Assembly (NCBI GenBank): GCA_001799195.1
Contig: MGSU01000272.1
Location: 1 to 6,076 of the forward strand
DNA: 6,076 nt
Direction: 5' to 3'
Origin: Deltaproteobacteria bacterium RIFOXYA12_FULL_61_11
GTDB taxonomy: Bacteria; Bdellovibrionota_F; JAHFAK01; YA12-FULL-61-11
This document shows, one piece after another, positions 1 to 5,982 of the stretch. Position 1 is the first letter of the stretch, and the number at the start of each line of letters is the position of its first letter. The notes below the pieces were generated by a model. It saw only the letters and a list, made by a program, of their open reading frames with translations, had not been told where the DNA came from and did not search any database. The translations under genes were made by a program, and so were the position numbers.

Positions 1-153
1 CGCCGCCACGAAGCCAGTTTTCGCGCCGCCACCCTCACCCTCGCTCCCCTCACCTACAACCCTGCTCTGTCGCCCGAGGAGTTCGAGGCCGAGAAGGAAC
101 TCGACCTCGGCGGCGAGAAAATCCTCGTGCAGATAGGGAGGGTACGGCGGTGA
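1..153 (+). CDS. C-terminal end of an unidentified protein (5' truncated by window)
   Basis: Frame 1 is open from the first base to a TGA at 151-153, giving the last 50 residues of a protein whose start lies outside the window. The tail is charged (SPEEFEAEKELDLGGEK) and ends IGRVRR. Codons end mostly in C or G, like the genes that follow, and the stop overlaps the GTG start of the aldolase gene in the pattern GTGA. Such overlap implies co-transcription and probably translational coupling. I do not recognise the family from this fragment and assign no function. That it is a real gene rests on the open frame, the codon bias and the overlap. Confidence 0.6.
   Translation, partial: RRHEASFRAATLTLAPLTYNPALSPEEFEAEKELDLGGEKILVQIGRVRR
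136..142 (+). promoter_or_regulatory. Ribosome binding site for the class II aldolase gene
   Basis: GGGAGGG lies seven bases before the GTG at 150. It is a strong Shine-Dalgarno match inside the end of the preceding gene. It decides the GTG start over internal ATG codons, which would remove the start of the fold. Confidence 0.7.
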
Positions 154-788
154 TCGGTTCCCGCTCGCTGCGCAAGGAACTCATCGCGGTCTGTCACTTG
201 ATGCACCAGCGTGGGCTCATCGCCGCCGCCGACGGCAACGTCAGCGTGCGTTTCGACGGCGAGCGCATCCTGACCACGCCCTCGGGGTTCAACAAGGGAC
301 TGCTCTCCGAGGACGACCTGTGCGTGACCGATCTCCAGGGCCGACTGCTCCACGGTCTGCACAAACCCTCTTCCGAGCTGCGCCTGCACCTCGCCGTCTA
401 CACGGCCAGGACCGACGTCCGAGCCGTGGTCCACGCCCACCCCCCGACCTGTGTGGCCCTCTCGATCGCGGGTATCGGTCTTTTAAGCCCCCTCCTGCCC
501 GAGGTCGTGCTCTCCCTCGGCGAGATCCCGACCGCCCCCTATGCCACGCCGACCACGGCCGACCTGCCCGAGACGATCCGCACGCTCATTCCCACGCATG
601 ACGCCATCCTTCTCGAACGACACGGCAGCCTGACCGTGGGCAAAGACCTCACCGAGGCCTACAACCGACTGGAATGCATGGAACACGCTGCGACCGTGAT
701 CTTCCTGGCTCGGCAGCTTGGCAATCCTTCCCTCCTACCGGCCACCGAGGTGGCCAAGCTGCGCCGTATCGCCGCCGGTCGGGGCTGA
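150..788 (+). CDS. Class II aldolase/adducin family protein (FucA/AraD-like)
   Basis: Predicted cytosolic zinc-dependent enzyme of 212 residues, almost the length of E. coli L-fuculose-1-phosphate aldolase. The family's signature residues are present in order: GNVS at 29-32 and TTPSGF at 42-47 (phosphate-binding region), SSE at 74-76 with the general acid/base Glu76, zinc ligands His95 and His97 in HAHP, and His158 in ERHGS. The active site therefore looks intact. Family members cleave or epimerise sugar phosphates, or dehydrate methylthioribulose-1-phosphate (MtnB). The substrate cannot be told from the sequence, and no other sugar or methionine-salvage gene is visible. The GTG start overlaps the previous stop and has a strong Shine-Dalgarno. 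The helicase gene begins ten bases after its stop, so the three genes probably form one transcript. Confidence 0.9.
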   Translation: MIGSRSLRKELIAVCHLMHQRGLIAAADGNVSVRFDGERILTTPSGFNKGLLSEDDLCVTDLQGRLLHGLHKPSSELRLHLAVYTARTDVRAVVHAHPPTCVALSIAGIGLLSPLLPEVVLSLGEIPTAPYATPTTADLPETIRTLIPTHDAILLERHGSLTVGKDLTEAYNRLECMEHAATVIFLARQLGNPSLLPATEVAKLRRIAAGRG

Positions 789-798
789 GCCCCCCACC
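777..798 (+). other. Small GC-rich hairpin across the aldolase stop and helicase start
   Basis: GGGG (781-784) can pair with CCCC (790-793) around a CTGAG loop that contains the aldolase stop. GGT (777-779) can pair with ACC (796-798) directly before the helicase ATG, leaving a small internal loop. The only purine-rich sequence that could serve as a ribosome site for the helicase (781-784) is inside this stem. Ribosomes terminating on the aldolase would open it, which would couple the two genes. In a GC-rich genome such a stem may arise by chance. Confidence 0.3.
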
Positions 799-3303
799 AT
801 GGAACAACTCGCCAAGCATCTGAGTGAAGCTACGGTTGAAACCCTGCGCCAGGCCATCGCCGAAGCCGGCGGCAACGAGGTCGTCTTCGTCGGCCAGGTC
901 GACGAACGCGGGAGGGTCTTCCAGGTGGAACCGATCGCCCGCGGCAACCTCGAGGCCGCTCCGGTCGTGCTCAGCCGTCTCGGCCCGGGCGAGGTCGTGC
1001 TGCACAACCACCCGGGAGGCGAGCTCACCCCCTCCCACCAGGACCTCGAGCTGGCCTCACGCCTCGCCAATGAGCGCGGCTGCGGTTTTCTGATCGTGGA
1101 CAACGAGGTCACGCGGGTCTACGCCGTGGTCGCCCCGCTGCCAAAAAGAACGCAGACCTCACTCGACCTCGCCCGCCTGACCGCGCTGCTCGCTCCGGAC
1201 GGACGTATTGCCACGGCCCTTCCCGGGTACGAGCACCGCCCCGAGCAGGTCCACATGCTCGAAGAGGTGGTCCAGGCCTACAACCACGACTCCATGGCCG
1301 TGATCGAGGCCGGCACCGGTACCGGCAAGTCCCTGGCCTACCTCGTCCCCAGCATCATCTGGGCCGCGACCAATCGCGAGCGCGTGGTCATCGCCACCCG
1401 CACCATCACGCTGCAGGAACAGCTCCTGCACAAGGATCTCCCCTTCCTGCGCGAGTGTCTCGGCTACGACTTCAAGGCCGTGCTGGTCAAGGGCCAGGCC
1501 AACTACCTCTGCCTCAAGAAGCTCGAGTCCCTCCATCGCGGCGCCTGGTTGCCCGGCCTCCGGCCCGACCTCGAGCGCCTCTCGGCCTGGGCCGAGCGCA
1601 CCACCGACGGCAGCACCGCCGACCTGGACCACGACGCTCCGACCGAACTGTGGGACGAGGTCAGCGTCGAATTGGACCTCTGCCCGCGGCTGCGCTGCCC
1701 GCACTATCAACGCTGCTTCTACTTCAGCGCGCGCCGCGAGGCCGCCTCGGCCGACCTCTTGTTGATCAACCACCACCTGCTCTTCGCCGACCTCTCCCTG
1801 CGCAACCGCGGTCCGGCCGGGGCCAGTCTACTCCCCGGGTATACCAAGCTCGTGCTGGACGAAGCCCACCACCTCGAGGAAGTGGCCTCGGAGTTCCTCG
1901 GCGGCGAGGTCGGCAACCTGTGGTTGCAGCGGCTCCTGCGCCGGCTCTACCATCAGGGGCAACGCTACCCCTCGGTCCTTGCGCAGATCACGGTCCAGGT
2001 GAAGAGCTGTCCCGCGCTGCCCCTGGCCCTTGCCGACCGGCTCGGCGAACTCCTCGAGGTCGAACTGCCGGACCTGCATCGCGAGTTGGTCGACTTGGTC
2101 GCCGAGCTGGTCGACGGCACCCTGACCTGCCTCGGAACACCGGGCTCTGGGAATTCCAAGGCACTGAAATTGCGTCTGCGCGAAGAGGACTTCGAGCGGC
2201 CGGAGCTCCAACAGGCCGCGATCCGTCCCGCGACCACCCTGCTCGTTGCATGCGCCGCCTTCCGCCGGGGGGCAGAACGGCTGGTCGAGACCTTGGGCGA
2301 AGCCCCCGAACGCCTCAAAGAAGACCTGATCTTCCCTTTGCAGATCCTCGCAGCCCTGACCCTGCGGCTGGAACGCGCTCTTGACACGCTCTGCGAACTG
2401 CTCACCCCGGGAGAGAATGACCAGGTGCGCTGGATCGAGCTGGAACAACGCCGCACCGGTTTTTCCCTGGCCTTCCGCGGTGCGCCGCTCGCCGTAGGTG
2501 AGGCCTTGACCGAGCAGCTCTACCAGCGCACGGCCAGCACCATCTTCACCTCGGCGACCCTGTCCACGGAGCGCACCTTTGCCTTCTTCCGGGAACGGGT
2601 CGGTTTGGACCGCTATACCGAACCACGCCTGTGCGAACGACTGATCGGTTCACCCTTCGCTTACCGGGAGCAGGTCCTCCTGGGAGTGCCCTCGGACCTC
2701 CCCTCGCCCAAGGCCCCAGGCCACCTCGCCGCTCTGACCCGGGCAGTCAAAGAGCTCTGCCTGGCCACGGGCGGCGGCACCTTCGTCCTCTTTACCTCGC
2801 GCGAACAACTCGACGCGGTCCACCGCGCCGTCCAAGCCGAGCTCACCGAAGCCGGTTTGCAGCTCTTCCGGCAGGGCGAGTTGCGGCGTTTTCAGCTCCT
2901 CACCGCCTTCAAGGCAACCCCCGGCGCCGTGCTCTTCGGCACGGACAGCTTCTGGGAGGGAGTCGACGTCGAGGGTGATGCCCTGCGCGCCGTGCTCATC
3001 GCCCGCCTGCCCTTCCGCGTGCCCACCGAGCCGCTCCTCCAGGCCCGGGTCGAGGACCTCGAGCGCCGCGGCGAGGACGCCTTCACCCGCTACACCGTGC
3101 CCCAGGCCATCATCCGTTTCAAACAGGGTTTCGGCCGTTTGATCCGGAAGAAGGACGACCGCGGCGTAGTCGTGATCCTCGACTCCCGGGTTCTCGGTCG
3201 ATCCTACGGCCAGGCCTTCCTCTCCTCCCTGCCCGAGACCGGACGCTGCTTCGCCCCGCAAGAGAAGGTCGTGGCCGAGGTGCGGCGGTTCCTGAAGCGC
3301 TGA
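799..3303 (+). CDS. DinG/XPD-family ATP-dependent DNA helicase with N-terminal JAB/RadC-like (JAMM) domain
   Basis: An 834-residue superfamily 2 helicase of the DinG/XPD group, expected to unwind DNA 5' to 3' in repair or at R-loops. Residues 1-120 form a JAB/MPN domain close to that of RadC: candidate Glu27 (NEVVFVG), HNHP at 69-72, then Ser79 and Asp82 (SHQD), the full JAMM set. The helicase follows: Walker A AGTGTGKS (171-178, Lys177), motif Ia near 197-206, four cysteines at 238, 295, 300 and 306 spaced for a 4Fe-4S cluster, DEAH (354-357), TSAT (584-587), motif V GTDSFWEGVD (714-723) and motif VI QGFGRLIR (776-783). Residues about 360-570 would be the arch region. The ATG at 799 is preferred. 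An in-frame ATG at 718 would add 27 residues lying inside the aldolase gene with no family character. Classical DinG lacks the JAB domain, and Firmicute DinG carries an exonuclease there instead. Helicase identity is very sure, and JAB identity is quite sure. Confidence 0.95.
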   Translation: MEQLAKHLSEATVETLRQAIAEAGGNEVVFVGQVDERGRVFQVEPIARGNLEAAPVVLSRLGPGEVVLHNHPGGELTPSHQDLELASRLANERGCGFLIVDNEVTRVYAVVAPLPKRTQTSLDLARLTALLAPDGRIATALPGYEHRPEQVHMLEEVVQAYNHDSMAVIEAGTGTGKSLAYLVPSIIWAATNRERVVIATRTITLQEQLLHKDLPFLRECLGYDFKAVLVKGQANYLCLKKLESLHRGAWLPGLRPDLERLSAWAERTTDGSTADLDHDAPTELWDEVSVELDLCPRLRCPHYQRCFYFSARREAASADLLLINHHLLFADLSLRNRGPAGASLLPGYTKLVLDEAHHLEEVASEFLGGEVGNLWLQRLLRRLYHQGQRYPSVLAQITVQVKSCPALPLALADRLGELLEVELPDLHRELVDLVAELVDGTLTCLGTPGSGNSKALKLRLREEDFERPELQQAAIRPATTLLVACAAFRRGAERLVETLGEAPERLKEDLIFPLQILAALTLRLERALDTLCELLTPGENDQVRWIELEQRRTGFSLAFRGAPLAVGEALTEQLYQRTASTIFTSATLSTERTFAFFRERVGLDRYTEPRLCERLIGSPFAYREQVLLGVPSDLPSPKAPGHLAALTRAVKELCLATGGGTFVLFTSREQLDAVHRAVQAELTEAGLQLFRQGELRRFQLLTAFKATPGAVLFGTDSFWEGVDVEGDALRAVLIARLPFRVPTEPLLQARVEDLERRGEDAFTRYTVPQAIIRFKQGFGRLIRKKDDRGVVVILDSRVLGRSYGQAFLSSLPETGRCFAPQEKVVAEVRRFLKR

Positions 3304-3323
3304 GGTAGGATCCCCCCTGCAAC

Positions 3324-4502
3324 TTACTCGAGCGCAACCTCAGGGCTGCCATACTCAATACCGGCATAGTCGGACATGAGATCTGCCACAAGTTCGTAGC
3401 GCACACCCTGCAACCGATAGAGCTTGACCGCCACGTGACCGGTGAGGGTTTCCAGGTCGTGGAAGATGTCCCCCTGCGGGGTCTGGAAGACGAGGTCGAG
3501 GAAGGACTCTCTGGGCGCCTCGGCTTTGAGCTCGATCTTGTAGCCTCCGCCGTAGGCGCTGAGTTCCCAGCGGCCGAATTCCATGTCGACGAAGACCGGA
3601 TTGAGGTGGTTGGGGCGGAAGGAATAGACAACGCCCTGGTGCAGCAGGCCGATACACACCCCCTCGAGGAGCTCGACACCGAGAATTTCGGGGCGTCCTC
3701 CACCGACGACCAAGGCCGTGTCGGGGTGACCCTCGAAGTGGTTCGAGACTATCCAGGACCACCAGGTCGGGAATTCGTTACCCCAGTTGCGGTCTTGATA
3801 GCAGGGTACGTCTTGAAAATCATGGGTCACGCCGAAGGAGGAAATAGTGCCGCTGCAGCGAGCGCTGGCCTGGGCGGGGAACCAGCCGATATTGGTAGCC
3901 TTGGGGACATACAAGCCCCAGCCCATGGCGTTGAATTCCCAAACAAATTCCACAGTAAAGGCCCAGGAATGAAGGTTCCCCTCCTCATCGACCAGCTCAC
4001 CGGAAACTTCTTTATCTGTCAAAGTATTAGCACCAATGCGGACTTCTGTCTTGTCGTAGGCGGCGTAGAAGTCCTCGACCGGGAAGTCCTCATTGAGGGT
4101 GGCCTTCGCCGAGAAATTGCCGAAACCGACGTACGCGCGAGAGGCGGGCTGGGTCTGTTCCTCGTCCCAGGGATTCACGACGCCGTAGACGGTGTAAAAG
4201 GACTGGCCGCTCTCGGGCAGCACGATCTTGTAGTACCACCACTCGAACCAGGGCGAACGGTCAACCTTGTCTCGCCCCGTAGCAGCGTTGCGCGCATTCC
4301 AGATCAACGCGTTGTACGGTGCGTTGGCCGGATCTTGTTGAAGGTTTTTTGTGACGGTGGGGAGTTGGTCGGAGGATGCATCGCCCGGGTCCCGAGTAGC
4401 CGTTTGGTCGTTGCCCAGGCAAGACGGCCCCGCGGAGACGGCAAGCATAGCGGCCAGGGTGAAACTCGTGAACACAAGGACATAGCGCGACCGTGTCGGC
4501 AT
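3324..4502 (-). CDS. Exported tocopherol cyclase-like (VTE1-like) family protein
   Basis: A 392-residue protein starting at the ATG at 4502, with a signal peptide: Arg4 and Arg6, a hydrophobic stretch at about 8-24, and a VSA cleavage site at 22-24. Cys28 does not sit in a good lipobox. The mature part resembles the tocopherol cyclase-like family of plant and cyanobacterial VTE1. It has SPWFEWWYYK (83-92, matching the WFEGWYF motif), CYQDRNWG (234-241) followed by FPTWWSWI (244-251), a GGG turn at 267-269, and a C-terminal AGIEYG (380-385) matching the family's last strand. VTE1 closes the chromanol ring of vitamin E. Export and the absence of other tocopherol genes here make that reaction doubtful, and binding or modifying a lipid-like substrate in the periplasm is an inference. 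An upstream in-frame start at 4622 would add 40 cysteine- and arginine-rich residues before the signal peptide and is rejected. It is convergent with the helicase gene. The 211 bases upstream show no second gene and only weak promoter-like hexamers. Confidence 0.8.
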   Translation of the reverse strand: MPTRSRYVLVFTSFTLAAMLAVSAGPSCLGNDQTATRDPGDASSDQLPTVTKNLQQDPANAPYNALIWNARNAATGRDKVDRSPWFEWWYYKIVLPESGQSFYTVYGVVNPWDEEQTQPASRAYVGFGNFSAKATLNEDFPVEDFYAAYDKTEVRIGANTLTDKEVSGELVDEEGNLHSWAFTVEFVWEFNAMGWGLYVPKATNIGWFPAQASARCSGTISSFGVTHDFQDVPCYQDRNWGNEFPTWWSWIVSNHFEGHPDTALVVGGGRPEILGVELLEGVCIGLLHQGVVYSFRPNHLNPVFVDMEFGRWELSAYGGGYKIELKAEAPRESFLDLVFQTPQGDIFHDLETLTGHVAVKLYRLQGVRYELVADLMSDYAGIEYGSPEVALE

Positions 4503-4511
4503 CACCGCCCC

Positions 4512-4517
4512 CCTCCC
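4512..4517 (-). promoter_or_regulatory. Ribosome binding site of the tocopherol cyclase-like gene
   Basis: On the minus strand GGGAGG lies nine bases before the ATG at 4502, inside a longer purine run. It supports the start that places the signal peptide at the N-terminus, rather than the longer open frame from 4622. Confidence 0.65.
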
Positions 4518-4713
4518 GCAACAGTAACAAAGAGGCGATACCACGCACCATCGAGAAGCACAAGTCCGATCGACCTGGCGTACAATGCAGTCTTGGGGTG
4601 GCGAGGGGTCCTGTCGCCTCACAACAACACCACGAGCGACCGATTTCCACTAAAACCGGGACCAAAGCAAGGGGTTGGGCAACAAGATAACACCGAGCGG
4701 AGCTGCTAGGACT

Positions 4714-4980
4714 CTATTCGTAGTGGGTCCACAGCCGCAGGATCTTGACGACATGCTCCGTCTCAAGCACCTGGTAGACCAGGCGATGCTGCAAGGAGAT
4801 CCTGCGCGAATAGGCACCGGTAAGGTCCCCGCGCAGCTTTTCATAGGTCGGCGTCGTGGCGAAAGGGTGCTCGGCCAAGAGATCGAGCAAGACCTCGACC
4901 TTGGGTTTCAACCCCGCCTGGGCAATGCGCTGAGCATCCTTCTGGGCCTGCCGGGTGTACCGGATCGACCACGTCGGCAC
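4714..4980 (-). CDS. yoeB: Txe/YoeB family toxin (ribosome-dependent mRNA endoribonuclease)
   Basis: An 88-residue RelE-superfamily toxin. YoeB enters the ribosomal A site and cuts mRNA there, stopping translation. The residues that matter in E. coli YoeB have counterparts at near-identical positions: Glu47 (YEKL), Arg66 (QHRLVY) and the C-terminal His86-Tyr87 (THYE). SRRISLQHRLVY (58-69) is the family's core motif. All catalytic positions are kept, so it should be active. The start is a GTG at 4978-4980, four bases after the antitoxin stop, with only a weak Shine-Dalgarno. Translation therefore probably depends on the antitoxin gene just before it, which would keep toxin below antitoxin. No hairpin with a T run follows the stop. 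Confidence 0.92.
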   Translation of the reverse strand: MPTWSIRYTRQAQKDAQRIAQAGLKPKVEVLLDLLAEHPFATTPTYEKLRGDLTGAYSRRISLQHRLVYQVLETEHVVKILRLWTHYE

Positions 4981-4984
4981 GGCT

Positions 4985-5227
4985 TCACCACGGTAAGGTT
5001 GTCGAACACTCGGAGAGCGGGGAGTCGAGACCTTCTTTGATCGATTCGCGCATCCCCGGCAGCGCGAGCAGGTACAGGGTTTCCTCGAGCGCGCGCCAAT
5101 CCTCGGCCGAGATCAGCACCGCGCTGGCACGTTTGCCGGTGATCTGGATAGGACGATGCTCGGTCGCCGCCTCGTCGATGAGGCGATACAGGACAGTGCG
5201 AGCCTGCGTAGCGGTCAAGGTCTTCAT
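4985..5227 (-). CDS. yefM: Phd/YefM family antitoxin
   Basis: An 80-residue antitoxin for the YoeB toxin encoded immediately downstream. The N-terminal half fits the Phd/YefM DNA-binding fold: TLTATQAR (3-10), then the strand PIQITGKRASAVLISAEDW (26-44). The C-terminal half starts with the family motif EETLYLLALPG (48-58). In YefM this part unfolds in isolation and wraps the toxin. The ATG at 5227 is chosen because a GAGG Shine-Dalgarno lies six bases before it and the family normally begins at this residue. An ATG 24 bases upstream gives only eight extra residues. Antitoxin first, toxin second, four bases apart, is the usual layout. It is probably autoregulated through the palindrome in its promoter. 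Confidence 0.92.
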   Translation of the reverse strand: MKTLTATQARTVLYRLIDEAATEHRPIQITGKRASAVLISAEDWRALEETLYLLALPGMRESIKEGLDSPLSECSTTLPW

Positions 5228-5233
5228 CCCCCG

Positions 5234-5238
5234 CCTCT
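5234..5238 (-). promoter_or_regulatory. Ribosome binding site of the YefM antitoxin
   Basis: The minus strand reads AGAGG six bases before the ATG at 5227. It favours this start over the ATG at 5251. Confidence 0.55.
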
Positions 5239-5257
5239 GGGTCGTGAGCACTCTTCA

Positions 5258-5289: not shown

Positions 5290-5526
5290 TTGCCTCCACC
5301 GACGTCGGCTTTGACAAGGTCGGAGCTCGATCTCGTCCTCGACGGCCTGCCGGGCAGCCTGCCCATCGAGATCAAGCTCGGTCTCCAGGTCGGCAAGGCC
5401 GATCTCTTGCCGCTGCACCGCTTCCTCGACAACCTCGCCCTCCTGCTCGGCTTGCTGGTCAACTGGGGCGAACGCGTGGCCCAGCTCAGCGACAGAGTGG
5501 TCCAGATCCCGATCGGCTGGTGGTGA
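5290..5526 (+). pseudogene. C-terminal remnant of a DUF4143-type ATPase (probable)
   Basis: An open frame of 78 residues, formally from a TTG at 5290, ending TGA at 5524-5526. From about 5311 it reads RSELDLVLDGLPG, then LPIEIKLG, and it ends GERVAQLSDRVVQIPIGWW. This is the pattern of the extreme C-terminus of DUF4143-family AAA-type ATPases: a SEvDLvl...IEvK nuclease-like core, then a GeRv..l.drv..iPi end. Those proteins are usually about 400 residues, so the ATPase part is missing. The sequence before about 5311 is the yefM promoter region, with no sign of the rest of the gene. The TTG lacks a Shine-Dalgarno and sits next to the antitoxin -35 box. It is most likely a dead fragment. Family assignment is from motif memory and only moderately sure. 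Confidence 0.5.
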
Positions 5527-5602
5527 GCCGCTCAGACCCTGGCTCGACGCGGAAATACACCTCGCGCAGCTCGGAGGCAGGGGCTTGTTCATGAGTTTTC
5601 AT
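5527..5602 (-). pseudogene. Cut-off reading frame at the BrnA antitoxin position
   Basis: An ATG at 5602 on the minus strand has a good Shine-Dalgarno (AAGGA, about six bases before it). It overlaps the last 14 bases of the BrnT gene, the arrangement expected for a BrnA antitoxin. The frame encodes about 25 plausible residues (MKTHEQAPASELREVYFRVE and a few more). It then runs antisense into the C-terminus of the + strand ATPase fragment and stops at 5486-5488 after 38 codons. The DNA-binding part of an antitoxin is absent, so the gene appears truncated at a junction near 5527. These residues are too few to prove BrnA, and the call rests mainly on position. Confidence 0.4.
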
Positions 5603-5860
5603 GTCGTTTCCTTTCGCTGGTAGTAGCACAACGAGCACTGATGATCCTTATACCATCCCCTGTATCGGTATGAGCAATACCAGCAGCCGCCGTGCGTCTG
5701 AGTATTCGATGGTCAGGTAGCGCTGCTCCCCATGAGCATGGTCTGGGTCCTCGAAGGATGCAACGAACGGATCGCCGAATACGGTCAGAGCCTCTTCGAA
5801 GCCGACACTGTGTTTCATGAAATTCTGTCGTGCCTTGTTCTTGTCCCACGCCCAAATCAT
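5589..5860 (-). pseudogene. brnT: BrnT family toxin (DUF497), frameshifted
   Basis: BrnT is a RelE-like ribonuclease toxin of about 90 residues. Residues 1-68 in the first frame show the family pattern: WDKNKARQNFMKH (5-17), GFEEALTVFGDPF (20-32) and DPDHAHGEQRYLTIEYS (38-54), then RRLLVLLIPIQG. This frame stops at 5648. The expected C-terminus, DGIRIISARCATTSERKR, continues in the next frame and stops at 5589-5591. Joining them by re-reading one G in the GGGG run (complement of 5657-5660) gives a continuous 90-residue BrnT. The break is therefore best explained by loss of one G from a run of five, or by a sequencing error. The ATG at 5860 has AAGGAA before it, though close. With the antitoxin apparently cut off, loss of a working toxin makes sense. 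Confidence 0.8.
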
Positions 5861-5928
5861 CGTTCCTTGCTCACCGCACCTGCGGACCGATGTTCGCCAT
5901 CAGCGATGAAGAGCGTCTATTCTTCGCG

Positions 5929-5956
5929 CAGGAAACTCAGGAAACTCAGGAAACTC
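5929..5956. repeat. Short 9-bp tandem repeat, three copies
   Basis: CAGGAAACT is repeated three times without mismatch at 5929-5955, followed by the first base of a fourth copy. It lies upstream of the BrnT start, outside any supported gene. It could be replication slippage or a protein-binding array in the brnT promoter region. No function can be assigned. Confidence 0.85.
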
Positions 5957-5982
5957 GAGCGATGAGGGACGCTGCCGCGTAG

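Follow-up and report, generated by a model that had tools for sequence, protein, structure and literature searches.

Gene structure and domain composition

We analysed a 6,076-nucleotide stretch of DNA from Deltaproteobacteria bacterium RIFOXYA12_FULL_61_11 (the whole stretch is called the window below), in which one gene encodes a DinG-type helicase preceded by a RadC-like domain. This open reading frame lies at positions 799..3303 of the + strand, starts with ATG and specifies a protein of 834 residues (P0001). It was classified as a RadC-like DinG protein from the reading frame, Pfam, NCBIfam and the family alignment, where the relatives start at approximately the residue at which the window's protein begins. 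The N-terminal RadC-like JAB/JAMM domain comprises residues 1-112 (799..1134, +) and is followed by a variable linker of residues 113-142 (1135..1224, +), with the lowest pairwise identity among the segments compared (25%), and by a DinG/XPD-type helicase at residues 143-820. A scan of window positions 1-3500 found no promoter or terminator.

The initial annotation, made from the sequence alone, had read residues 1-120 as a JAMM/RadC-like domain and had named two profiles for checking it. When this piece was searched alone against Pfam, the RadC profile PF04002 matched residues 10-91 (E 3.6e-9, 37.0 bits). Since this score exceeds the gathering cut-off of 22.1 bits, a JAB/RadC match is present and the proposed identity of the domain held. 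The other profile, Prok-JAB PF14464, gave 19.0 bits and stayed under its cut-off of 25. Within the whole 834-residue protein, PF04002 scored 30.1 bits. The NCBIfam models of RadC proper were missed by far with the 120-residue piece (30.2 vs 180 bits for NF000642, 23.9 vs 133.85 bits for TIGR00608). The JAMM/MPN+ signature, i.e. an upstream Glu plus HxHPx6Sx2D, is complete. Glu27, the predicted catalytic base, is encoded at 877..879 (+), and the motif H69-N-H71-P-x6-S79-x2-D82 at 1003..1044 (+); all five residues named initially were thus found in place, in JAMM order and with the spacing HxHP-x6-S-x2-D.

The AlphaFold2 model of residues 1-126, built from a 15-sequence alignment, reached a pLDDT of 89.8 and a pTM of 0.83. 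Its top Foldseek match in the PDB was RadC (2qlc, E 5.6e-6), followed by CSN5, Rpn11, archaeal Rpn11, BubCD, AfJAMM and PfJAMM1; zinc-bound Rpn11 and PfJAMM1 were among the best fold matches. VIA-align gave Z scores of 8.4-9.8 across ~90-116 residues, with Rpn11, CSN5 and PfJAMM1 at 9-10; the matches listed were JAB/MPN-type chains, and the part superposed on JAB/MPN structures was mostly residues 5-112. These matches strongly support a JAB fold for the N-terminal domain; a fold match alone is no proof of a metal site and speaks only indirectly for the convergence of Glu27, His69, His71 and Asp82 that the initial annotation had proposed to check.

As for the helicase part, the complete DinG-type motor with four cluster cysteines that had been annotated initially was recovered in full. 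In alignment A1, positions E170-G174, G176 and K177 of Walker A (EAGTGTGK, residues 170-177; 1306..1329, +) do not vary. The iron-sulfur (Fe-S) cysteines are C238 (1510-1512), C295 (1681-1683), C300 (1696-1698) and C306 (1714-1716), together spanning 1510..1716 (+). The DEAH box, with D354 and E355 invariant, is at residues 354-357 (1858..1869, +), and motif VI (QGFGRLIR, residues 776-783; 3124..3147, +) is near-invariant in A1. Helicase_C_2 was matched in Pfam with an E of 2e-47. The best NCBIfam score was that of YoaA (NF053712, 571.4 bits), the curated cut-off of 680 not being reached. The full-length model (pLDDT 87.1) predicts a further helix at residues 821-833, which the alignment with E. 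coli YoaA equates, by position only, with the C-terminal alpha7 helix of that protein.

A "RadC-like DinG" subgroup was defined in a 2025 review by Cheng (PMC11981726), with Desulfuromonas soudanensis as the modelled example. Its conserved E, H, H and D, for which the review also models a zinc, are represented here by E27, H69, H71 and D82, and the DinG/YoaA-type motor, the Fe-S and arch domains and the C-terminal helix (predicted at 821-833) are shared as well. Because these features are present, the window's protein belongs to the subgroup. No report of a bench test of a RadC-like DinG was found in the literature. Stand-alone RadC (E. coli YicR; 2qlc) shares the JAB fold and the HNHPxG..xPSxxD motif. 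The JAMM peptidases PfJAMM1, AfJAMM and Rpn11 share fold and catalytic residue set, but they are only ~15-21% identical to the window's domain and their substrates are ubiquitin-like conjugates.

Distribution, conservation and origin of the fusion

Fifteen fused JAB domains were combined into a profile, which was searched at E <= 1e-12 against 386 sampled genomes. The fusion was found in 47 of them, the window's own included, representing 33 family codes and 41 genera; metagenome-assembled genomes of KSB1, Calditrichota and Poribacteria are among the named members. Almost all fused genes lie within open frames of 800-1040 residues, and the three shorter frames (191, 229 and 651 residues) are at contig ends or perhaps frameshifted. 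With this recurrence and with frames free of internal stops, misassembly or a local gene fusion was rejected. How common the architecture is had been left open by the initial annotation: it is widespread in bacteria and has been catalogued already (PMC11981726). The architecture is thus not new, and what is added here is its distribution, the conservation of its residues, the JAB clade and a recurrent neighbouring gene.

Among 55 full-length members, the whole E-H-H-S-D set is retained in 52 (Glu27 in 52, H69 and H71 in 54 each, S79 in 53, D82 in all 55), and all four Fe-S cysteines in 48. Mean pairwise identity amounts to 40% in the JAB domain, 54% in residues 143-240, 29% in the Fe-S/arch region and 45% in helicase domain 2. 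A chance motif match was rejected on the strength of this conservation together with the PF04002 score. A decayed linker, which the initial annotation had also thought improbable, is contradicted by the intact active-site residues and by a JAB identity above that of the Fe-S/arch region.

The exceptions fall into two lineages. In L129 and L131 (two genomes of one family) the JAMM set reads GHHTD (E27G/S79T), with HNHA replacing HNHP. In L130 it reads DRYSD (HNH to RVY), while its close relative L108 keeps the site. All three proteins retain the helicase motifs checked.

A tree of 55 fused and 30 stand-alone RadC domains (only 128 columns) separated the two sets by one change, with an SH-aLRT of 100 and a long branch between them; a recent acquisition of the domain from the RadC of the same genome was therefore rejected. 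Most stand-alone RadCs of this tree contain a P-R-E segment (x-P-R-E), which is absent from the window's protein. The fused domains differ from stand-alone RadC in forming a separate, long-branched clade. Among the 95 rows of a helicase tree, those of fused proteins were strongly clustered (6 changes vs 30.5 in shuffles) but did not form one clade, and two long-branched plain rows (L016 and L026) fell inside the fused group. When these and other long or redundant rows were left out, a single fused clade was likelier than the free tree (p-AU 0.86). One fused helicase clade is thus not rejected by the sequence data, which is no proof of a single origin. ExoDinG-type proteins, in which a DnaQ-type exonuclease precedes the same kind of helicase, were placed near the fused proteins in the 95-row tree. 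An N-terminal RNase_T domain, standing where the window's protein has JAB, was confirmed in four of these relatives.

Genomic context

Immediately upstream of the helicase gene, at a distance of 10 nt, lies a class II aldolase/adducin-family gene (150..788, +; PF00596, E 2e-49), and co-transcription of the two is possible. Beside the 57 loci inspected there was no recurring cluster of such genes, nor was any family-wide operon partner found among their neighbours. The exception was a clade-specific gene for a metallo-beta-lactamase (MBL)-fold hydrolase. In 10 loci, all from a single clade (L033, L034, L035, L036, L037, L041, L042, L044, L098 and L132), it precedes the fused gene in the same orientation, in 9 of them within ~120 nt. 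Four of the ten loci have PdxS/PdxT-type genes in common; since the other six lack them, general synteny does not fully explain the pairing. The MBL protein scored 191.5 bits with the ligase-associated DNA damage response exonuclease model (TIGR04122, cut-off 325) and resembles CPSF73, SNM1A and Artemis. The window's own genome contains no close copy of the MBL gene.

HolC (G000:C315; PF04364, E 1.8e-20), a RadC-less YoaA-like paralogue (C2) and a stand-alone RadC (C190) all occur together with the fusion in the window's genome. A separate RadC accompanies the fusion in 37/47 genomes by frame count, some of these genomes being incomplete. HolC was reported to be absent from organisms with the RadC-like DinG subgroup (PMC11981726); among 37 fusion-bearing genomes, we found it in three and did not find it in the remaining 34. 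The published correlate thus mostly holds, yet it fails in the window's genome, which differs from the described subgroup in having both HolC and the separate YoaA-like paralogue. A search of the same genome for LexA-type peptidases found an S24 protein.

The remaining part of the window carries several further features. A tocopherol-cyclase-like protein with a possible signal segment is encoded at 3324-4622 (-; PF14249, E 5.8e-36). At 4714-5251 (-), a YefM/Phd-type antitoxin gene followed by a YoeB/ParE-type toxin gene forms a complete-looking type II toxin-antitoxin pair. A BrnT-type toxin gene (PF04365) is located at 5648-5860 (-), and a 38-residue frame (MKTHEQAPASELREVYFRVEPG...) starting just downstream of it, at 5486-5602 (-), is perhaps a truncated BrnA antitoxin. 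A 78-residue frame at 5290-5526 (+) has no Pfam match and resembles the tail of a larger protein; an ATPase remnant would be a guess. Approximately three copies of aggaaactca make up a short tandem repeat at 5928-5957. A defence island or a type IV CRISPR DinG was considered and set aside: the PADLOC typeIV_DinG matches cover the helicase part only, and the toxin-antitoxin genes are the sole defence genes of the window.

Possible role of the JAMM domain

We consider it probable that the protein is an Fe-S DNA-repair helicase of the RadC-like DinG subgroup with a catalytically competent zinc JAMM hydrolase at its N-terminus. In favour of this reading are the RadC and YoaA/DinG profile matches, the confidently predicted JAB/MPN fold, the retention of the catalytic residues and cluster cysteines, the single clade of fused JAB domains together with a fused helicase clade that is not rejected, the position shared with the exonuclease of ExoDinG, the MBL-fold nuclease-like gene of one clade and the identical architecture and residues in PMC11981726. 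In the proposed mechanism, the ATP-driven helicase part would move along single-stranded DNA where damage or stalling has occurred, with the 5' to 3' polarity expected from its family. The hydrolase would occupy the place of the exonuclease in ExoDinG. Because of this placement, it would most likely act on what the motor delivers, be it an amide bond of a protein attached to the DNA or the nucleic acid as such. Peptidase and nuclease activity appear roughly equally likely. We lean slightly towards hydrolysis of a peptide or isopeptide (amide) bond, because to our knowledge the characterised JAMM enzymes with the E-H-H-S-D set are peptidases. A narrower version, in which an active protease clears or trims proteins stuck on DNA (crosslinks, roadblocks) ahead of the helicase within one polypeptide, seems quite unlikely to us. 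Two points weigh against the hydrolase we prefer. The two lineages described above have lost the site and kept the helicase, so hydrolysis is dispensable there; and a ubiquitin-tail groove has been deemed unlikely in RadC-type JABs (PMC5512222).

That the JAB domain is a nuclease or another nucleic-acid-processing enzyme, working on the strand that the helicase unwinds, as is thought for the exonuclease of ExoDinG, seems possible rather than probable. The domain is positioned as RNase_T is in the nearby branching ExoDinG relatives, and in one clade a nuclease-like MBL-fold gene adjoins the fusion. On the other hand, we know of no JAB domain for which nuclease activity has been demonstrated, and the fold matches are JAB/MPN proteins, though a fold does not reveal a substrate. 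The DALI analysis in the 2025 review found no similarity to nucleases (PMC11981726); a 2017 study citing RadC fusions to DinG/RAD3-like helicases argued for nucleic-acid processing (PMC5512222). This alternative had not been considered in the initial annotation, whose interpretation as a RadC-like JAB domain with an intact site joined to a DinG/YoaA-type helicase is supported; the functions it suggested, protein processing on DNA or substrate recognition, are candidates.

Catalysis by the JAMM domain is favoured over docking because Glu27 and Ser79, beyond the metal ligands, are almost always retained. MPN- domains are non-catalytic docking modules, and the GHHTD and DRYSD proteins, which keep both the domain and the helicase, would suit a module that merely recruits the helicase to a partner. 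However, the full catalytic set persists in nearly all members, including two residues needless for binding alone, and we find such a role rather unlikely. It is very unlikely that this is just the YoaA of the organism, with an incidental JAB domain. YoaA is the closest characterised helicase by profile score, and HolC, which E. coli YoaA contacts via R619/T620 (PMC11981726), is present in the genome. Nevertheless, the score is under the YoaA cut-off and is surpassed by the RadC-less paralogue (605 vs 571 bits), E. coli YoaA has no extra N-terminal domain, its two contact residues align with Gln and Glu in the window's protein, and HolC accompanies the fusion in just three genomes.

The function of RadC-type JAB domains has been disputed for decades, with a repair protein, a misnomer, a peptidase or a nuclease all having been suggested. 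In this family, such a domain is widely fused to a motor whose DNA substrates can be tested, and its catalytic residues are nearly always kept, which offers a direct route to the target of this JAB clade. The two lineages devoid of the site (L129/L131 and L130) would serve as natural controls.
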